Source of the DNA: Nitrospira tepida
GTDB lineage: Bacteria; Nitrospirota; Nitrospiria; Nitrospirales; Nitrospiraceae
Assembly: GCF_947241125.1 (NCBI RefSeq)
Contig: NZ_OX365700.1
Coordinates: forward strand, 2,946,001-3,010,000
Direction of reading: 5' to 3'
Length of the DNA: 64,000 nucleotides
In this document: one piece after another, positions 41,008-53,035 of the stretch
How the letters are laid out: the number at the start of each line of letters is the position of its first letter
Position numbering within the stretch: the stretch's first letter is position 1
Made by a program: the position numbers and the translations under genes
The notes under the pieces: generated by a model
Told to the model about the DNA's origin: nothing
Seen by the model: only the letters and a program-made list of their open reading frames with translations
Databases searched by the model: none

Positions 41008-44319
<3,312 letters not shown>

Positions 44320-44340: not shown

Positions 44341-45279
44341 TCATCCCAGCATGGGCGGCGAATTGATGATCGGGGGCAGTTGGATCGGCTCGGACGGAAC
44401 CGGCGGGCTCCCGTCCGGCCGGTAGTGACGGAGCGCATCCGGCAACCAGGCTTCGATCTGATTCATGCGGGTGACATCCGAGGGATGCGTGGACAAGAAC
44501 TCCGGGATGGCCGCCGCCGATCGAAAGCAGAGTTTGCCGATCATGTTCCGGGGGCATCCGCTCATCCGCTCCCAAAAGGGAAGGGCCTCGCGCGGATCGT
44601 ACCCCGCCTGCGCCATCAATCTCAGTCCGATATAGTCCGCCTCGGATTCCTGCTTCCGGTTAAAGGGCAGGGACACCCCCACGCCATAGGCACTCTGGAG
44701 CCCGATCATGGCGCCCGGAGGGACCGCCCCCGTGGCCGCGGCAGCGATGGTGCCGAGCGCCGCGATCTGCTCCAACACGCCCCTGCTCATCCGTTCGGCT
44801 CCATGCCGTTGCAGCGCATGGGCCACCTCGTGGCCCATGACGGTTGCGAGGCCCGCTTCGTTCTGGGTGTATTTGAGCAGTCCGGTGAACACCGCCACCT
44901 TGCCTCCGGGCAGAGCGAAGGCATTCACGATCCGGTCCTCTTGAATCACCGCAAATTCCCAATGGTATTCCGGCTTGTTCGCGGCCTTGGCAATACGCTC
45001 CCCCACCCGATGGATCAGCTCATTTTTCTCGACGCTGGGGCTGAGCGGCGCGCCCCGCAGCACGTCACGGAACGCCGCCGTTCCCATCGCAATTTCTTTC
45101 TCTTCGGAGATGAAGATGAACTGATCGCGGGCCGTGCCCGGCGCTTTATAACAGCTCTGAAGGCCGCCGAGCGCGAAGCCGGCGGCGCACACCACCCCTG
45201 CTCTCCCGAGCAGCGCGAGCAGGGCGCGCCGGTCGAGCGGAGTCGCCAACCATGTATCCAGCCTGTTCCCGGTTTCCAT
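44341..45279 (-). CDS. M48-family zinc metallopeptidase, envelope-associated
   Basis: A 312-residue protease. The zinc motif HEVAH (His150, Glu151, His154) and the third ligand in ESEADYIGL are present, as in BepA/LoiP-type M48 peptidases that police outer-membrane proteins. The N-terminal hydrophobic stretch (about 19-42) ends at Cys43 (GGLQSC); the lipobox is imperfect because of Gln at -2, so a lipoprotein or simple export are both possible. A Twin-Arg pair (DRRALLALLG) precedes it. It sits between carB and sppA, 21 bases before carB. Confidence 0.9.
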   Translation of the reverse strand: METGNRLDTWLATPLDRRALLALLGRAGVVCAAGFALGGLQSCYKAPGTARDQFIFISEEKEIAMGTAAFRDVLRGAPLSPSVEKNELIHRVGERIAKAANKPEYHWEFAVIQEDRIVNAFALPGGKVAVFTGLLKYTQNEAGLATVMGHEVAHALQRHGAERMSRGVLEQIAALGTIAAAATGAVPPGAMIGLQSAYGVGVSLPFNRKQESEADYIGLRLMAQAGYDPREALPFWERMSGCPRNMIGKLCFRSAAAIPEFLSTHPSDVTRMNQIEAWLPDALRHYRPDGSPPVPSEPIQLPPIINSPPMLG

Positions 45280-45408
45280 CGCTCCACTGCCGTCTCTCGG
45301 GGTCCCACCGCTGCGCCGAACGGCCCTCTCGCCTCCCAGACTTCTCGCTCCCGCCCCTGCTCGATTTCTCCCAGCAATTCTATCTTCAGCCGTTGAGGCG
45401 CAACAGCC

Positions 45409-46380
45409 TCACGGCATCCAGAGATACATGAACTGCGGCGTCCCGCCCCGCACCAACGAGAAGAGGTCCAGGGAGGGCAGCGCCGAAAGCGCGTTCGGTT
45501 GACCGGCCAATCGAGAATAAATATTGTTTCGGTAGTCCCCGGGCCGGCGATAGGTGACCACCCGGGCGTTCGAGACCTTCCCCCGCTTTTTGGCCAACTC
45601 CACCGCGTCATCAAGATAACCGATCGCATCGATCAACCCGGCCTCTTTCGCCTGTTCACCGGTGTAAATCCGGCCGTCCGCCAGCTTGCGGATCTGCTCC
45701 GGCGAAAGATTCGGCCGGCCTTCATGAATCACCGTGAGAAATCGCCGGTAGAGCTGATCGATCACGCCTTGAAAAATCTCCCGCTCCTCCGGGCTCATGG
45801 CGCGGAACGGCGAGCCCATATCCTTGCGGGGCCCCGACGTGACCGCGTTGGCTTCCACCCCAACCTTTTCCAGCAGGCCGCGGGCGTTAACTGTCAACAT
45901 GATGACGCCCAAGCTCCCGGTGACCGACGAGGGATGCGCCATGATGGCATCGGCGGCTGCCGCCACGTAATAGCCGCCGGAGGCGCCGACATCCACGATC
46001 GAGGCCACGACCGGTACTTTTTTTTGCCGCTTATACGAGAGAATCTCGTGATAGAGGATATCCGACGCGGTGACCGTGCCGCCCGGGCTGTTAATGCGCA
46101 GGAGCAAGCCTTTGATCCGATCGTCTTTGGCCGCCAACTCCAGTTGCTCCTTCAGATCCGAGAGCATGCTCGGCTGGCTGATGAACCCGTCCTTTTCCTG
46201 GGAGCTAATCACGCCGGAGAGATCCACCAGGAGGATCTTGTCGCCACCGGTCCCGCTCAAGACTTCTTCCTTCAGAGGACCGGGACCGGGCGGCAGATTG
46301 ATCGTCACGCAGCCCGGAATCACCGCCAGCACGGCCGCCAACATGATCGGCACGATCAGGCCCGATCCGATTCTATCCAT
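45409..46380 (-). CDS. sppA: Signal peptide peptidase SppA, short form, with lipobox
   Basis: A 323-residue S49 serine protease degrading leftover signal peptides. The nucleophile Ser134 ([10 protein letters not shown]) and the general-base Lys186 ([10 protein letters not shown]) form the Ser-Lys dyad; [13 protein letters not shown] is also typical. It is the single-domain form. An unusual point: the N-terminal segment ends AVIPGC (Cys24), a good lipobox, so it may be a lipoprotein rather than a simple membrane-anchored enzyme. The start overlaps carA by eight bases. Confidence 0.93.
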
Positions 46381-47572
46381 GACGCTTCTCCATCATCTGC
46401 GTGAACTCACGAAACAGGTAGGCTGAGTCATGCGGCCCCGGCGAGGCTTCCGGATGGTACTGAACCGAGAAGACCGGCTGATCCAGCCCGACTAATCCTT
46501 CAACGGAGTCGTCGTTCAAACTGAGGTGGCTGATCTGCACCCGTCCCATCGCCGTGTCCACGACCCGAGGCGGCTGCTGGGCTGTGACCGTCCCCGGCAC
46601 CTGCACCGCAAAATTATGGTTTTGAGAGGTGATCTCGACCGTGCGGGCCCGCAGGTCCATGACCGGATGGTTGGCCCCGTGATGGCCGAACTTCAACTTG
46701 TAGGTCTTCAATCCCAGGGCCAACCCGACCAGTTGATGGCCCAGGCAGATGCCCATGACCGGCCGTCGCCCGATCAATTCCTTCACCGCCGCGCTGGCGT
46801 AAGGAACCCCTTCCGGATCGCCGGGCCCATTGGAGAGGAGCACCCCGTCCGGATTCAATCGCAGCACCTCCTCAGCCGGCGTCGCCGCCGGCACCACCGT
46901 CACGGCACAGCCGACATCCACCAGCCGACGCAAGATATTCTGCTTCACCCCGAAATCATAGACCACGACCCGATACCGGCCCGGTCCGTCCGGCTTCTTG
47001 CGCGGGGCCTGGGACCTCGCTCCCCCTTCAGACTCATCCGGCAGCCAGGGATCGGACCCGGCCGTCCAGTCATAGGGACGATCGCACGTGACGTCCTTGA
47101 CCAGATCGCGTCCGACGATGCTCGGCGCGGAGACGGCCTTCCGGATCAACCGATCTGGCTCCAGATCGAGGTGCGAGATCACCCCCTGCTGGGCCCCATG
47201 TTCGCGCAAGTGCCTCGTCAAGGCCCGCGTATCGATCCCCTGAATGCCGACGACGCGAGCCTCGCACAAATACGCATCCAGCGACTGATGACTGCGCCAG
47301 TTGCTCGGTCGCCGGCTGCCTTCCGTCACGACGAAGCCCTCGGCCCAGATCCGGCGGGATTCAACGTCGTCCTTGGCGATCCCGTAGTTCCCGATGTGCG
47401 GACAGGTCATCGTGACGATCTGTCCCTTATAGGAGGGATCCGTCAGGATCTCCTGATACCCGGTCATGGCCGTATTGAACACGACTTCGCCGACGGTCTC
47501 CCCTTCATGGCCCAGCGCCCGCCCGCGAAAGACCGTTCCGTCCGCCAACGCTAAAATGGCCGGCTTCATCAT
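46373..47572 (-). CDS. carA: Carbamoyl-phosphate synthase small (glutaminase) subunit
   Basis: A 399-residue glutamine amidotransferase delivering ammonia to CarB. The N-terminal CPSase domain has [20 protein letters not shown] and [14 protein letters not shown]. The class I glutaminase has the nucleophile Cys in [16 protein letters not shown] and the His/Glu pair in [12 protein letters not shown]. The start ATGATG overlaps the DUF4149 stop by four bases. A 20-residue Arg/Lys/Pro insert (around [19 protein letters not shown]) lies between the domains. Confidence 0.97.
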
Positions 47573-48144
47573 GCCACCGTCACCGATGGGAGCCGGCCCG
47601 TGGGCGGCACCGCCGACAACCAGGTCCGAACCTTGAGGACCATCAACGCCATCCCCGCCGCCAGATTCACCATGTAGACGGGGCGCGCGACCGTGTGGCT
47701 CATGAAAAAGAACGAATCCCAGGCTGACTTCCGTGCGGCCTCGTCTTTCGCCGTAAAGGCCAGCTCCTGGAGCGTCACCGCCGTAGGATGGAGCCACAAG
47801 CCAATGAAGAGCGCGATGACCATGATGCCGATCGTCAAGACCACCTCCGTTTTTCTCGGAGCCATTGACAGGCCCCCCGCCGTTCGATTGATTCGAGCCC
47901 GCCCAGCCGTCGCCAATCCAAGTGAGACCAGGCACACGAACGTGGCCCCATTGTACCCGCTGAAGACCCTCGTCAGAAATCGCCCGCCCGGTTCCGTGCC
48001 TCCGAACGAATTAAACACCGCGGGTATCACATCCGCAATGATAATGATGAGTCCGCCGGTCCACACGGCGAGCGAGAGCATTTCGACCGTCGCGCAGAGC
48101 ACCAGCAGGCGCCATCGCGGCCTTGTCCAGCCCTCCGCGCTCAT
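47569..48144 (-). CDS. DUF4149 family membrane protein
   Basis: A 191-residue integral membrane protein with four hydrophobic helices (about 10-33, 56-78, 96-117 and 160-178). The segment [20 protein letters not shown] and the following [14 protein letters not shown] pattern match DUF4149/TMEM205-like proteins, of unknown function. The ATG overlaps the pyrC stop by one base and its own stop overlaps carA, so it is firmly within the pyrimidine operon. A role there is not obvious. Confidence 0.83.
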
Positions 48145-49439
48145 CAGGCGGTCCACACCACGCGGCCGCCGACGATCGTCGCCCGAACCCGTCCCTTGAC
48201 CTTCCAACCGGCAAACGGCGTGTTTCGGCTTTTGGAATAGGATCGCCCCGAGTCCACCTCCCAGGCTTCGTTCGGATCCACGATCGTCAGGTCCGCATCG
48301 GCGCCGGGCGCCAGGGTGCCCTTTCGCAGTCCGAACACCCGCGCCGGCTCGACGGTCAGCTTGGCAATGGCCTGTTCCAACGACAGCACCCCCTCCTCCA
48401 CCAAGGCCATCGTGAGCGGAAAGGCCGTCTCCAAGCCGATGATGCCGAAGGGCGCATCCACAAACTCAAGTTGTTTCTCATGGGCCGCATGCGGCGCATG
48501 GTCGGTCGCGATAATGTCGATGGTGCCGTCCTTGAGCCCGCCCTTGATCGCCTGCACATCGTTCCAGGTGCGCAGGGGTGGATTCATCTTGGCGTGGGTG
48601 TCGTACCCGCGCACAGCCTCTTCCGTCAGCGTGAAGTGATGCGGACAGGCCTCGGCCGTGACCGCGATCCCGCGCTGCTTGGCCTCGCGGACCAGCCGCA
48701 CCGATCCCTCCGTGCTCACGTGGGGAAGATGCAACCGTGCGCCGGTCAGCTCGGCCAACATGATATTGCGCGCCACCATGACCTCCTCGGCCGCATCCGG
48801 GATGCCCGGCAATCCGAGTTCGGTCGAGACCACGCCTTCGTTCATGCAGCCGCCGTCGACCAGCGCCGTGTCTTCGCAGTGGTCCACGACCGGGCAGTCA
48901 AAGGCCCGCGCATATTCCATGGCCCGCCGCATCACGGCGCTGTTGGTCACGGGTTTCCCATCATCCGAGATCGCCACGCAGCCGGCCGCGCGAAGTTCGC
49001 CGATTTCGGCCAACTCCACTCCCTCCGAGCCCTTGGTGATCGCGCCGATCGGATAGACATTCGCCATGCCCGCCGCCCGCGCCCGATCCAGGATGAATTC
49101 CGTCACGGATTGACTGTCGTTCACCGGCTTCGTGTTCGGCATGCAGCAGACCGTCGTGAAGCCCCCCGCCACCGCGGCCGTGGCGCCGCTCTCGATGGTT
49201 TCCTTGTATTCGAACCCCGGCTCGCGGAAATGGACATGCAGGTCGACGAAGCCCGGTAGGACCAGCTTGCCCGTGGCTTCCAGCACGACCAATTCGCCGG
49301 ACGCTGGAGAGGGCTGCCGGCGGGCCTGTCCCTCCATTCGAATGACGGCGGCGATCAGGCCGTTCTCGATCAGGACATCGGCCCGCCCGTGAAACCGCCC
49401 CGGATCGAGCACGGTTCCTCCCTTGATCAACAATGCCAT
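48144..49439 (-). CDS. pyrC: Dihydroorotase (class I)
   Basis: A 431-residue amidohydrolase closing N-carbamoyl-aspartate to dihydroorotate. The metal motif DLHVHFREPGFEYKETIESG, the HCED segment (VVDHCEDTALVDGG) and the late TDHAPHAAHEK are present. Length and motifs fit the catalytically active class I form (pyrC in Bacillus-like operons) rather than the inactive pyrC' type. It lies 46 bases after pyrB. Confidence 0.96.
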   Translation of the reverse strand: MALLIKGGTVLDPGRFHGRADVLIENGLIAAVIRMEGQARRQPSPASGELVVLEATGKLVLPGFVDLHVHFREPGFEYKETIESGATAAVAGGFTTVCCMPNTKPVNDSQSVTEFILDRARAAGMANVYPIGAITKGSEGVELAEIGELRAAGCVAISDDGKPVTNSAVMRRAMEYARAFDCPVVDHCEDTALVDGGCMNEGVVSTELGLPGIPDAAEEVMVARNIMLAELTGARLHLPHVSTEGSVRLVREAKQRGIAVTAEACPHHFTLTEEAVRGYDTHAKMNPPLRTWNDVQAIKGGLKDGTIDIIATDHAPHAAHEKQLEFVDAPFGIIGLETAFPLTMALVEEGVLSLEQAIAKLTVEPARVFGLRKGTLAPGADADLTIVDPNEAWEVDSGRSYSKSRNTPFAGWKVKGRVRATIVGGRVVWTA

Positions 49440-49485: not shown

Positions 49486-50406
49486 CTATTCGCCGCCGGA
49501 CAGCAGATAGAGAATGGCCATCCGCACCGCCACCCCGTTCGACACCTGATCCAGGATCACGGACGAGAGGCTGTCGGCCACGTCCGAGGCGATCTCCACC
49601 CCGCGGTTGATCGGGCCCGGATGCATGACGACGACATCGGGGGCCGCGAGCTTCAGACGCTCCGCGGTCAAGCCGTACAGCCTCGAATATTCGCGGATCG
49701 TCGGAAACAGCCCCCGCCCCTGCCGTTCCAGTTGAAGCCGCAACATCATCACGACATGGACGTCCTGGAGCGCCTCGTCGAAGCGGTAATACACCGTCGG
49801 GCCGAGCCGCTCGATTCCCAGCGGAATCATCGTCGGCGGACCGACCACTCGCACCTCCGCCCCCAGTTTGATCAGCGCGTGGATGTTCGAACGGGCCACC
49901 CGGCTATGGGTGATGTCGCCGACCACCGCCACCTTGAGCCCTTTGAAGTCCAGCTTGCGCTCGCGCATCGTGTAGAGATCCAGCAACGCCTGCGTGGGAT
50001 GTTCGTGCCATCCGTCGCCGGCATTGATCACGGACGACTTCACCCCGCTCGCGAGCCGCTCCGCCGCCCCGGCCGACGGGTGCCGCAACACGATGATATC
50101 CGCCTGCATGGCCTCGATGTTGCGGGCCGTGTCGAGCAGAGTTTCGCCCTTCACGACGCTGCTCGAGGAGGGCGAGAAGTTGATCACGTCCGCGCTCAGC
50201 CGCTTCGCGGCCAGCTCGAATGAGGTGCGCGTTCTGGTGCTGGGCTCGAAGAACAGGTTGACGACCGTCTTCCCGCGCAGCGCCGGCACCTTCTTGATGT
50301 CGCGCCCGCTGACCTCCTTGAAGGAATCCGCCGTGTCGAGAATGCGCAGGATCTCATCAGCCGAGAGGGGCGCCAAGCTGACCAGATCCTTCTGTTTCAG
50401 GCTCAT
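49486..50406 (-). CDS. pyrB: Aspartate carbamoyltransferase catalytic subunit
   Basis: A 306-residue enzyme joining carbamoyl phosphate and aspartate, the committed pyrimidine step. The carbamoyl-phosphate loop [15 protein letters not shown], the [11 protein letters not shown] segment and [12 protein letters not shown] are clear. No pyrI regulatory gene follows, so it is probably feedback-insensitive or controlled at transcription by the PyrR attenuator. The ATG overlaps the pyrR stop by four bases. Confidence 0.97.
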
Positions 50407-50990
50407 GGGGCGCCTCCGCGCGACGGCTTGCGAAGTACCACCCGGTCGTCTTCCCCCTCTTCCTCCAGAAAGACCTGCACCTCTTCGTCCTGCGCCGTCG
50501 GAATGTTCTTGCCGATGTAGTTGGCCCGAATCGGCAGTTGGCGGTGCCCACGGTCGACCAGCACCGCGAGTTGAATTTCCTCCGGCCGCCCGAGGTCGAT
50601 CAGCCCATCCATCGCCGCCCGAATCGTCCGTCCGGTGAACAGGACATCGTCCACCAATACGACTCGCATGTCGGTGATGTTGAACGGGATCGAGGTCTTC
50701 CGGATCGTCGGCGTGCCCTTGCGCAGCCCGAGGTCGTCCCGATAAAGCGTGATATCCAGCTCTCCGCTCGGCACCTGCGCCTGCTCGATCTCGTGAATGC
50801 GCTTCACCAGCCGGTGGGCCAGATACACGCCGCGAGTCCGGATGCCGACCAGCGCGAGGCGCTCGGTCCCCTTATTGCGTTCCAAAATTTCGTGCGCAAC
50901 GCGGCTCAGGGCCCTGGCGATTTCGCTGTGATCCATCACCAGCTTCTCGTCGCGCCGGTGGTTCGGCTTGACCTGGCTTGTTTCAGGCAT
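50403..50990 (-). CDS. pyrR: PyrR bifunctional pyrimidine attenuation regulator / uracil phosphoribosyltransferase
   Basis: A 195-residue member of the PyrR family. The PRPP-binding loop [28 protein letters not shown] and [19 protein letters not shown] are classic. With UMP bound, PyrR binds a conserved RNA loop and promotes termination. The start ATG 50990 directly abuts the T run of a terminator hairpin; the GGAAGG that could serve as ribosome binding site lies inside the hairpin's 3' arm, so the hairpin could also hide the translation start. The C-terminal 20 residues are an acidic then basic extension ([13 protein letters not shown]). It heads the operon. Confidence 0.97.
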
Positions 50991-51029
50991 AAAAAAACCT
51001 TCCCACCCTGCGATGCCGGGCAAGAAGGT
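50991..51029 (-). terminator. Attenuator terminator directly before pyrR
   Basis: On the minus strand ACCTTCTTGCCC (51018-51029), a 9-base loop and GGGTGGGAAGGT (50997-51008) make a 12-bp stem with three wobble pairs, followed by a run of seven Ts ending at the pyrR ATG. This is a textbook intrinsic terminator placed in the leader rather than after a gene. Confidence 0.9.
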
Positions 51030-51119
51030 CTCCACTGGTCGCGTGGCGCATCCCCGCGCCACTCTGTCCGATCACGATCGACCAACTCCTTGCCCACCTC
51101 ACAGGATGGGCATTAAAGG
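50991..51119 (-). promoter_or_regulatory. PyrR-type RNA attenuator leader
   Basis: The predicted 129-base leader contains a PyrR binding loop at 51092-51111: GCCCATCCTGTGAGGTGGGC on the minus strand, which fits the known loop core UCCNGNGAGGY and is closed by GCCCA/TGGGC. Just downstream, GGGCAAGGAG (51086-51095) can pair with CTTCTTGCCC (51018-51027), the 5' arm of the terminator, giving an antiterminator. Loop and antiterminator share 51092-51095 and so exclude each other. This is the same logic as the Bacillus pyr operon, seen here in what appears to be a Gram-negative organism. Confidence 0.88.
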
Positions 51120-51126
51120 TTGCCTC

Positions 51127-51155
51127 ACCTTACCGAGTCCGCCCGGTCCTGTCAA
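51127..51155 (-). promoter_or_regulatory. Promoter of the pyrimidine operon
   Basis: Minus strand TTGACA (51150-51155), 17 bases, TAAGGT (51127-51132). The predicted start, near 51119, places the PyrR binding loop within the first 30 bases of the transcript. Confidence 0.7.
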
Positions 51156-51253: not shown

Positions 51254-53035
51254 TCAGCCCTTGGCCAGCAGCGCCAAGGTCAGCCCGGTCTTGATCCTCG
51301 CCTTGGCCAGGATGGTCTGGTGCATGCGGAAGGGAGGCAGCTCCGCCACCGGCCATTGCCCGGCCACGCGCAGCCCCGCCTCCCGATGGCTCTCCTCCGG
51401 CATCCGGGGTCCGAAGAGAAACCCCAGTCCTCTCGGAGCCAGCGCCGCAGCGAATCGAGACAGGGATCGCACGAGTTCGCCGGGCTGGTCATGCTGGGCA
51501 AAGGGCACTCCATCGTAAATCAGGTCATAGCGCCCCTGGTAGGCCCGGTCGAGGTGGGGCTCGGCCTGGTACAGGCGAACGGAAGTAAGATCTGTCGTGC
51601 GCCCTTCCCTGGTCCAATTGGTCCAGAGAGATTGGGCCTGTCGTTGAATGTGCGCGGGATGGCGGAAGAGCACGAGAGCGCTATTGGCCCGCCCCAGGGA
51701 CAGCAGCGAGGTCAGGCCCGCATCTATATTATGGATCAGGACGGTTTTCGCCCGGTCGATCATCATGCGCAAGGAGGCTTCCTGCTCCAGCAGATCGGTC
51801 AGATAGTCCACCACAAAAGCCTGGGTGCCCAGTTCGTCGATCTCCCGCTCATCCTCCGGATAGAGCAACACGGCCCCAAAGGCCTCAGCCGGCGGGACCG
51901 GCGGCACACCCTCGGCAAACAGGTCCCGCCAACTCGGCCCAACCACAGACATCAATGAGACCGTGGAATTCTTGACCGCCCCCCAGGAGCTTGGCCAGGC
52001 CAGCCTCGTCTCATGATCCCCGTCCTTGAGGACCAACTCACCCTGCTCCACCAGCAGCCCGCGGCCCCCCGGTGCGAAGCCCTTGGCGTCCGGCGCCATG
52101 TAGGAGAGTCCTGCGGGATCGTCGGCCACGGTCGCCTTGACCGCCTGTTCCCCTCGGACGGTGACACAGAGGCGGCGGGGTTGGTCGCAGTAGCGGCGCA
52201 ACGGCGTCGTATGCGGAACCCAGGTCACTTCGTGTGAGCGCGGCGGGTCCATGAAGAGTTCAAAAGGATCGGGCCCCTGCGGCCCTCGCGCGGTAAAGAA
52301 CCCGCCGAACAGTTTATAGGCGGCCTCCGACGGATAGGTGGGAATCCCCCGATAGCGGAGCAACCGGTCGCCGGCCGGACATTGGTCGTCATACAGCTCG
52401 CGGATCAGCTCCAGCACGGCCGAGCCGGTGCCGGGCACGAGCGACTGAAACAGCTCGACGACCGGGAGAAAATCGATCCGGTCCCAATGCATCGCCCCCA
52501 TGCAGGCCATGAAGCGGGCCCCGTCGAACCGGCCTTGATCAAGCAGGTAGAAGGCATCCTTCCGGTGCCGGATCGTGGCAAGGCCTCGCTCGTCGATGCG
52601 CAGATCGTCATCCGTATAGAAGAACTGGATTTCACTCAGCGGCACGCGAAGGGCCTGGGCGGCCATGTGCCGGAGGTCATCGGGACGAATGTGCTGCCAG
52701 CCCGGTTTGCGGGACAGATCCAACGTAGTGCTGGTGACAAGCCCGCTCGGACGGATCCCGACCCACTGACCCCAGTCGAGCCAGACCCGCGCCCGCCGCA
52801 GCCGTATCGCGCCGCCCTCAGCCGGCTCCCAGTCGCATTCGTGCAGAGGCTGGCCGTCCGGATCGGCATAGAGAATCCTCCGGCCGTGTCCGCCGTAGAG
52901 CACGAGATGTCCGGCGGGCTGGCGCAGCGCCCGCCCGCCGGCCTCTGCCAGATCGGTGGCGTAGGGAAGATTGGAAGGGAAAACAAACGTGCCGGGCCTG
53001 CCGAGAAGAGCCTGAATGCGGGCGTCGAGAGCCAT
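51254..53035 (-). CDS. Large hypothetical protein, possible methyltransferase-like C-terminus
   Basis: A 593-residue soluble protein, no signal or membrane segment. I do not recognise the family. The N-terminal half has mixed alpha/beta content with long charged stretches (e.g. IQFFYTDDDLRIDERGLATI). Residues about 420-560 (MMIDRAKTVLIHNIDAGLTS; GRYDLIYDGVPFAQ; LAPRGLGFLFGPR) resemble a Rossmann-like methyltransferase tail in pattern, but the usual glycine-rich SAM loop is not evident. It starts immediately after the proA stop, so the two are likely co-transcribed. Its stop lies about 100 bases before the pyr promoter. Confidence 0.72.
   Translation of the reverse strand: MALDARIQALLGRPGTFVFPSNLPYATDLAEAGGRALRQPAGHLVLYGGHGRRILYADPDGQPLHECDWEPAEGGAIRLRRARVWLDWGQWVGIRPSGLVTSTTLDLSRKPGWQHIRPDDLRHMAAQALRVPLSEIQFFYTDDDLRIDERGLATIRHRKDAFYLLDQGRFDGARFMACMGAMHWDRIDFLPVVELFQSLVPGTGSAVLELIRELYDDQCPAGDRLLRYRGIPTYPSEAAYKLFGGFFTARGPQGPDPFELFMDPPRSHEVTWVPHTTPLRRYCDQPRRLCVTVRGEQAVKATVADDPAGLSYMAPDAKGFAPGGRGLLVEQGELVLKDGDHETRLAWPSSWGAVKNSTVSLMSVVGPSWRDLFAEGVPPVPPAEAFGAVLLYPEDEREIDELGTQAFVVDYLTDLLEQEASLRMMIDRAKTVLIHNIDAGLTSLLSLGRANSALVLFRHPAHIQRQAQSLWTNWTREGRTTDLTSVRLYQAEPHLDRAYQGRYDLIYDGVPFAQHDQPGELVRSLSRFAAALAPRGLGFLFGPRMPEESHREAGLRVAGQWPVAELPPFRMHQTILAKARIKTGLTLALLAKG

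Follow-up and report, generated by a model that had tools for sequence, protein, structure and literature searches.

Introduction

The textbook account of PyrR attenuation, drawn from Bacillus, is a contest between two RNA folds. A sequence-only reading of 64,000 nucleotides of Nitrospira tepida (contig NZ_OX365700.1, positions 2,946,001 to 3,010,000; hereafter the window) proposed a complete attenuator of this kind before the pyr operon of a presumed Gram-negative bacterium. The locus raises two questions: whether PyrR controls the operon, and what keeps the terminator from forming when the operon is to be expressed.

Promoter, predicted PyrR-binding hairpin and operon

All features described lie on the minus strand, and the promoter, the PyrR hairpin, the antiterminator arms and the terminator were located where the sequence-only reading had placed them. 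The promoter comprised the -35 hexamer TTGACA (51150..51155) and, after a 17-nt spacer, the -10-like hexamer TAAGGT (51127..51132); TTGAC and a -10-like hexamer were present upstream of the PyrR loop in 65/65 family leaders. A generic promoter and terminator scan of the leader gave no match, since TAAGGT has only three positions of TATAAT and the scan settings do not cover a terminator loop of 9 nt.

The predicted PyrR-binding hairpin CCUUUAAUGCCCAUCCUGUGAGGUGGGCAAGG (51088..51119) was delimited by alignment to RF00515, folding (-14.6 kcal/mol) and covariation. It consisted of a CCUU/AAGG lower stem, an internal loop, a 7-bp upper stem and a UCCUGUGAGG loop; the loop element originally described, 51111-51092, corresponds to the upper stem. 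The covariance search and the RNA folding suggested with the original proposal bore it out: RF00515 was matched over the whole model (positions 1-115/115) at 50990-51123 with 46.1 bits and E 4.2e-5, and the whole leader folded at z = -5.8 in comparison with shuffles. The gathering score of RF00515, 54 bits, is not reached, which is why a default Rfam scan of the window leader was blank. The UCCNGNGAGG loop was closed by a covarying stem: across Nitrospirota, 96% of the cells of the upper stem were paired, and two-sided changes occurred in 56 cells vs 20 in shuffles.

The element sits between the conserved promoter and the genes pyrR-pyrB-pyrC-carA-carB. As had been claimed, pyrR (regulator/uracil phosphoribosyltransferase, 50403..50990; NF003549, 244 bits, cut-off 138) directly follows the attenuator, its ATG at 50990 lying at the U-run and, in this genome, leading into pyrR by an open frame. 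Next come pyrB (aspartate carbamoyltransferase, 49486..50406; NF002032, 415 bits), pyrC (dihydroorotase, 48144..49439; TIGR00857, 442 bits), carA (carbamoyl-phosphate synthase small subunit, 46373..47575, start approximate; TIGR01368, 484 bits) and carB (large subunit, 41008..44319; NF003671, 1675 bits). In alignments, the PyrR of the window keeps the equivalents of B. subtilis R19, H22, T41, H140, R141, R146 and K152, with T18S and K40R, residues which we take to be RNA-binding; the genome thus encodes a PyrR with a conserved RNA-binding face.

Genes for three further proteins are interspersed with carA in the pyrC-carB interval (44341-48207): a DUF4149 protein, an S49 (SppA-like) peptidase and an M48 peptidase. 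A 593-aa ORF (51254-53035) that follows proA and lies just ahead of the pyr promoter gave no Pfam or NCBIfam match at E 0.001.

Terminator and RNA antiterminator

The intrinsic terminator (50991..51029; -20.7 kcal/mol, z -4.2) has a 12-bp stem, the hairpin extending from 51029 to 50997 and the U7 run from 50997 to 50991. The GGGAAGG in its 3' arm also fits as a Shine-Dalgarno sequence of pyrR. The RNA antiterminator hairpin (51018..51095) folded at -37.5 kcal/mol (z -3.0), with a helix of 10-11 bp in which 51095-51086 pairs with 51027-51018, extended by GGUCG/CGACC. The 3' arm of the PyrR loop thus pairs with the 5' arm of the terminator, as in the Bacillus type. The contiguous helix of 11 bp was the longest of 65 family leaders, and the minimum-energy fold of the window leader was the antiterminated form. 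The spacer, which includes a GC-rich hairpin (51043..51062) within the leader ORF described below, is longer than usual, with the U-run 94 nt past AAGG vs mostly 72-86 nt in relatives.

Antiterminators were compared by the free energy gained when the 5' arm of the terminator can pair upstream. The median gain was -3.7 kcal/mol for family leaders, -4.0 for those of other Nitrospirota and -4.6 for those of Deinococcota, in all three cases the level of shuffled spacers, and -8.3 in Bacilli and -8.1 in Clostridia; the gain in Nitrospirota and Deinococcota was weaker than in Firmicutes (p 3e-9, for sequences that are not independent). A helix of at least 8 bp between the loop arm and the terminator arm was found in only 11/65 family leaders. 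The RNA antiterminator of the sequence-only reading is real in this genome, but its pairing is not conserved among relatives, being at chance level in the family and the phylum.

An attenuator of pure Bacillus type, in which the antiterminator 51095-51086/51027-51018 competes with the loop and the terminator, translation of the leader plays no part and pyrR is started from ATG 50990 via GGGAAGG, would agree with the exceptional helix, the antiterminated minimum-energy fold and the in-frame ATG at the U-run of this genome. It is at odds with the chance-level pairing elsewhere and with a leader start codon that is universal in the family, and we regard it as a possible but doubtful account.

Leader open reading frame

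The hexamer AAGGAG (51086..51091), which supplies the 3' arm of the PyrR loop and contributes to the antiterminator arm, is also the predicted Shine-Dalgarno sequence of a leader ORF. This ORF was overlooked when the locus was interpreted, correctly, as a PyrR-type attenuator before the pyr operon of a Gram-negative bacterium. The candidate leader ORF (50983..51075, 30 codons), whose position and openness are conserved in relatives, would start with a GTG located 10 nt past AAGGAG. It crosses the terminator and ends inside pyrR, with an overlap of 8 nt. A leader ORF with its ribosome site in the PyrR loop, open across the terminator, as in the Thermus type, is thus present in the sequence. The ORF of the window uses a minority reading frame; with its GTG at 10 nt and the longest antiterminator, it may be vestigial in this genome.

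An ATG or GTG 2-11 nt past AAGGAG was present in 65/65 family leaders (26 expected), as it was in the narrower window of 3-10 nt (14.7 expected); these shuffle-based expectations vary with the start-codon window chosen, and all counts given here overstate independence, as the leaders compared are related. Of the leaders from other Nitrospirota, 53/59 likewise had a start codon after AAGG (19 expected), as did 29/29 from Deinococcota, Meiothermus rufus included (9 expected); for Bacilli (14/32; 12 expected) and for Clostridia (6/17; 6 expected) the counts stayed at chance level. Single Firmicutes leaders with an ORF across the terminator, in Streptococcus parasanguinis (L201) and Calidifontibacillus (L194), may be due to chance. 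Chloroflexota were mixed, with a start codon in 12/19 leaders (8 expected); in a small sample, their antiterminators were weaker with a leader ORF than without (median -3.8 vs -10.1, p 0.04). Both kinds of leader, with RNA antiterminator and with ORF, occur within this phylum (L352, L364-L392), which offers a place to study the transition.

From its start codon the leader ORF ran without a stop across the terminator and the U-run in 63/65 leaders of the family (54 expected), in 34/53 of those from other Nitrospirota (22 expected) and in 26/29 of those from Deinococcota (19 expected). Leader ORFs of the sister family f2 mostly end inside or upstream of the terminator. The leader stop overlapped a pyrR start as ATGA or GTGA in 35/65 family leaders vs 30/133 other TGA triplets, and this overlap persisted despite insertions of about 100 nt (L045, L050, L061, L091). 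A conserved leader peptide was considered and rejected, substitutions being even over the codon positions (19/19/20 at positions 1/2/3, in 12 independent pairs). Because the peptide is not conserved, it is the translation or openness of the leader, not a peptide product, that appears from these comparisons to be under selection.

The sequence TTTTTTTATG, directly past the terminator (50997-50988), was kept in 54/65 family leaders (L035-L098). The ATG after the U-run was rejected as a universal pyrR start, as it was out of frame or closed in 33/58 leaders with an ATG or GTG at this place; the start codon at the TTTTTTTATG site may be a relic or may begin a second mini-ORF.

In Actinomycetota, 93/96 loci have AAGGAG ahead of a full-length gene, which is mostly pyrR; this supports reading the hexamer as a ribosome site masked by PyrR. 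The direct use of AAGGAG for the first gene in that phylum, and the location of both AAGGAG and the pyrR ribosome site in hairpin arms, would also suit a mainly translational control of Mycobacterium type, with ribosome sites masked by PyrR and the terminator hairpin and premature termination being minor; such control is improbable for leaders of which 65/65 in the family have kept a strong terminator with its U-run.

Distribution of the PyrR element

RF00515 was found in 158/198 Nitrospirota genomes (E <= 0.1) and exceeded the cut-off of 54 bits in only 32/198, so that most Nitrospirota leaders are hidden by the Rfam cut-off. Loss of the loop in relatives keeping pyrR, named beforehand as an outcome that would speak against the attenuator, was not observed: the loop was present in 29/29 relatives collected by the PyrR protein alone, with the RNA unused for selection. 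The mechanism is indeed best known from Gram-positive bacteria, as had been remarked, but the element occurs phylum-wide in both Nitrospirota and Deinococcota. That the loop is a product of chance or a relic not bound by this PyrR, as the RF00515 score below the gathering cut-off could suggest, is hardly credible given its phylum-wide conservation and covariation and its position exactly at the pyrR promoter in the family. On these comparisons, there is good support for PyrR attenuation of the pyr operon in a Gram-negative lineage.

Two weak matches in this genome (L002, L003; 23.7 and 20.3 bits) were rejected as second PyrR sites and treated as chance, having neither the UCCNGNGAGG loop motif nor a pyrR gene. 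No wider PyrR regulon was seen in other Nitrospirota: the genes next to L345, L346 and L348 are unrelated, and L349 corresponds to a second pyrR. Two pyrR genes, with a loop for each, apparently occur in some Nitrospirota genomes (L089 and L090 in G161; L349 in G016). The contig of a MAG labelled Armatimonadetes (L253) has a leader identical to that of the Nitrospirota genome G206 and is probably misbinned. A survey of RNA motif regulons (PMC3766115) rates the distribution of PyrR as moderate and makes no mention of Nitrospira. A literature search with partial access returned no relevant paper on PyrR in Nitrospira or on PyrR with leader peptides.

Proposed mechanism

The leader is probably an attenuator of transcription by which PyrR controls the pyr operon and which operates through the leader ORF, with a possible contribution of the RNA antiterminator in this genome (probability about 0.68). 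From the elements found in the leader we infer PyrR binding, its dependence on UMP, the translation of the ORF and the relative weight of the two antitermination routes in this genome, as follows. Transcription would begin just upstream of the PyrR loop. With ample UMP, PyrR-UMP would bind and stabilise the hairpin 51119-51088, hiding AAGGAG (51091-51086), the ribosome site of the leader ORF, and removing the 5' antiterminator arm; the terminator 51029-50991 would then form and transcription would stop before pyrR. When UMP is scarce and PyrR is off, a ribosome would load at AAGGAG, trail RNA polymerase and block the terminator, to be handed over to the overlapping pyrR start. In this genome the 10-11 bp RNA antiterminator could do the same job, also freeing the pyrR ribosome site in the 3' arm of the terminator.

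In Nitrospirota it is probably a ribosome reading the leader, more than a second RNA fold, that keeps the switch open, as judged from the leaders compared. For the window itself, the longest antiterminator helix, the longer spacer, the GTG at 10 nt and the in-frame ATG at the U-run make the Bacillus-like route a live rival, and both routes of antitermination may act. The wider generalisation stands, in our estimate, at even odds: that the ribosome acts as antiterminator in Nitrospirota and Deinococcota, where the RNA antiterminator of Bacillus is not the rule, that Chloroflexota have both kinds, and that the lineage of the window is a hybrid in which AAGGAG serves as loop arm, ribosome site and antiterminator arm.

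Comparison with known systems and significance

For Thermus strain ZO5, Van de Casteele et al. (J Bacteriol) reportedly proposed in 1997 that a translating ribosome, and not an RNA antiterminator, stops the terminator. The leader of the window resembles that system in its PyrR loop, in the terminator before pyrR and in the ribosome-based model of antitermination, and all 29 leaders of the Deinococcota set have the same leader start. It differs in belonging to another phylum, in adding a strong RNA antiterminator and in its gene order, pyrR-pyrB-pyrC being followed by DUF4149, carA, the S49 and M48 peptidases and carB. With the pyr attenuators of Bacillus subtilis it has in common the PyrR loop, the terminator and the bases common to the loop and the antiterminator arm, whereas Bacilli and Clostridia show stronger antiterminators without enrichment of leader starts. 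Translational control by PyrR of the Mycobacterium type, which Fields and Switzer are said to have described in 2007, likewise has a ribosome site, AAGGAG, in the loop arm, but there the site serves pyrR itself without a terminator, while here it would serve a leader ORF crossing the terminator. In E. coli pyrBI, attenuation by a leader peptide takes place without PyrR, the coupling being set by UTP-sensitive pausing of the polymerase; in both systems a ribosome on a terminator-spanning leader ORF would couple translation to readthrough, but here PyrR would gate translation of the leader.

Because the proposal for Thermus ZO5 exists and the Deinococcota set fits it, the leaders of Nitrospirota represent a new and widespread case of a mechanism that is known but little tested. 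In two phyla outside Firmicutes the leader ORF is the conserved element, which gives broad comparative support to the model drawn from a Thermus strain, and ribosome-based PyrR attenuation becomes testable in many lineages.
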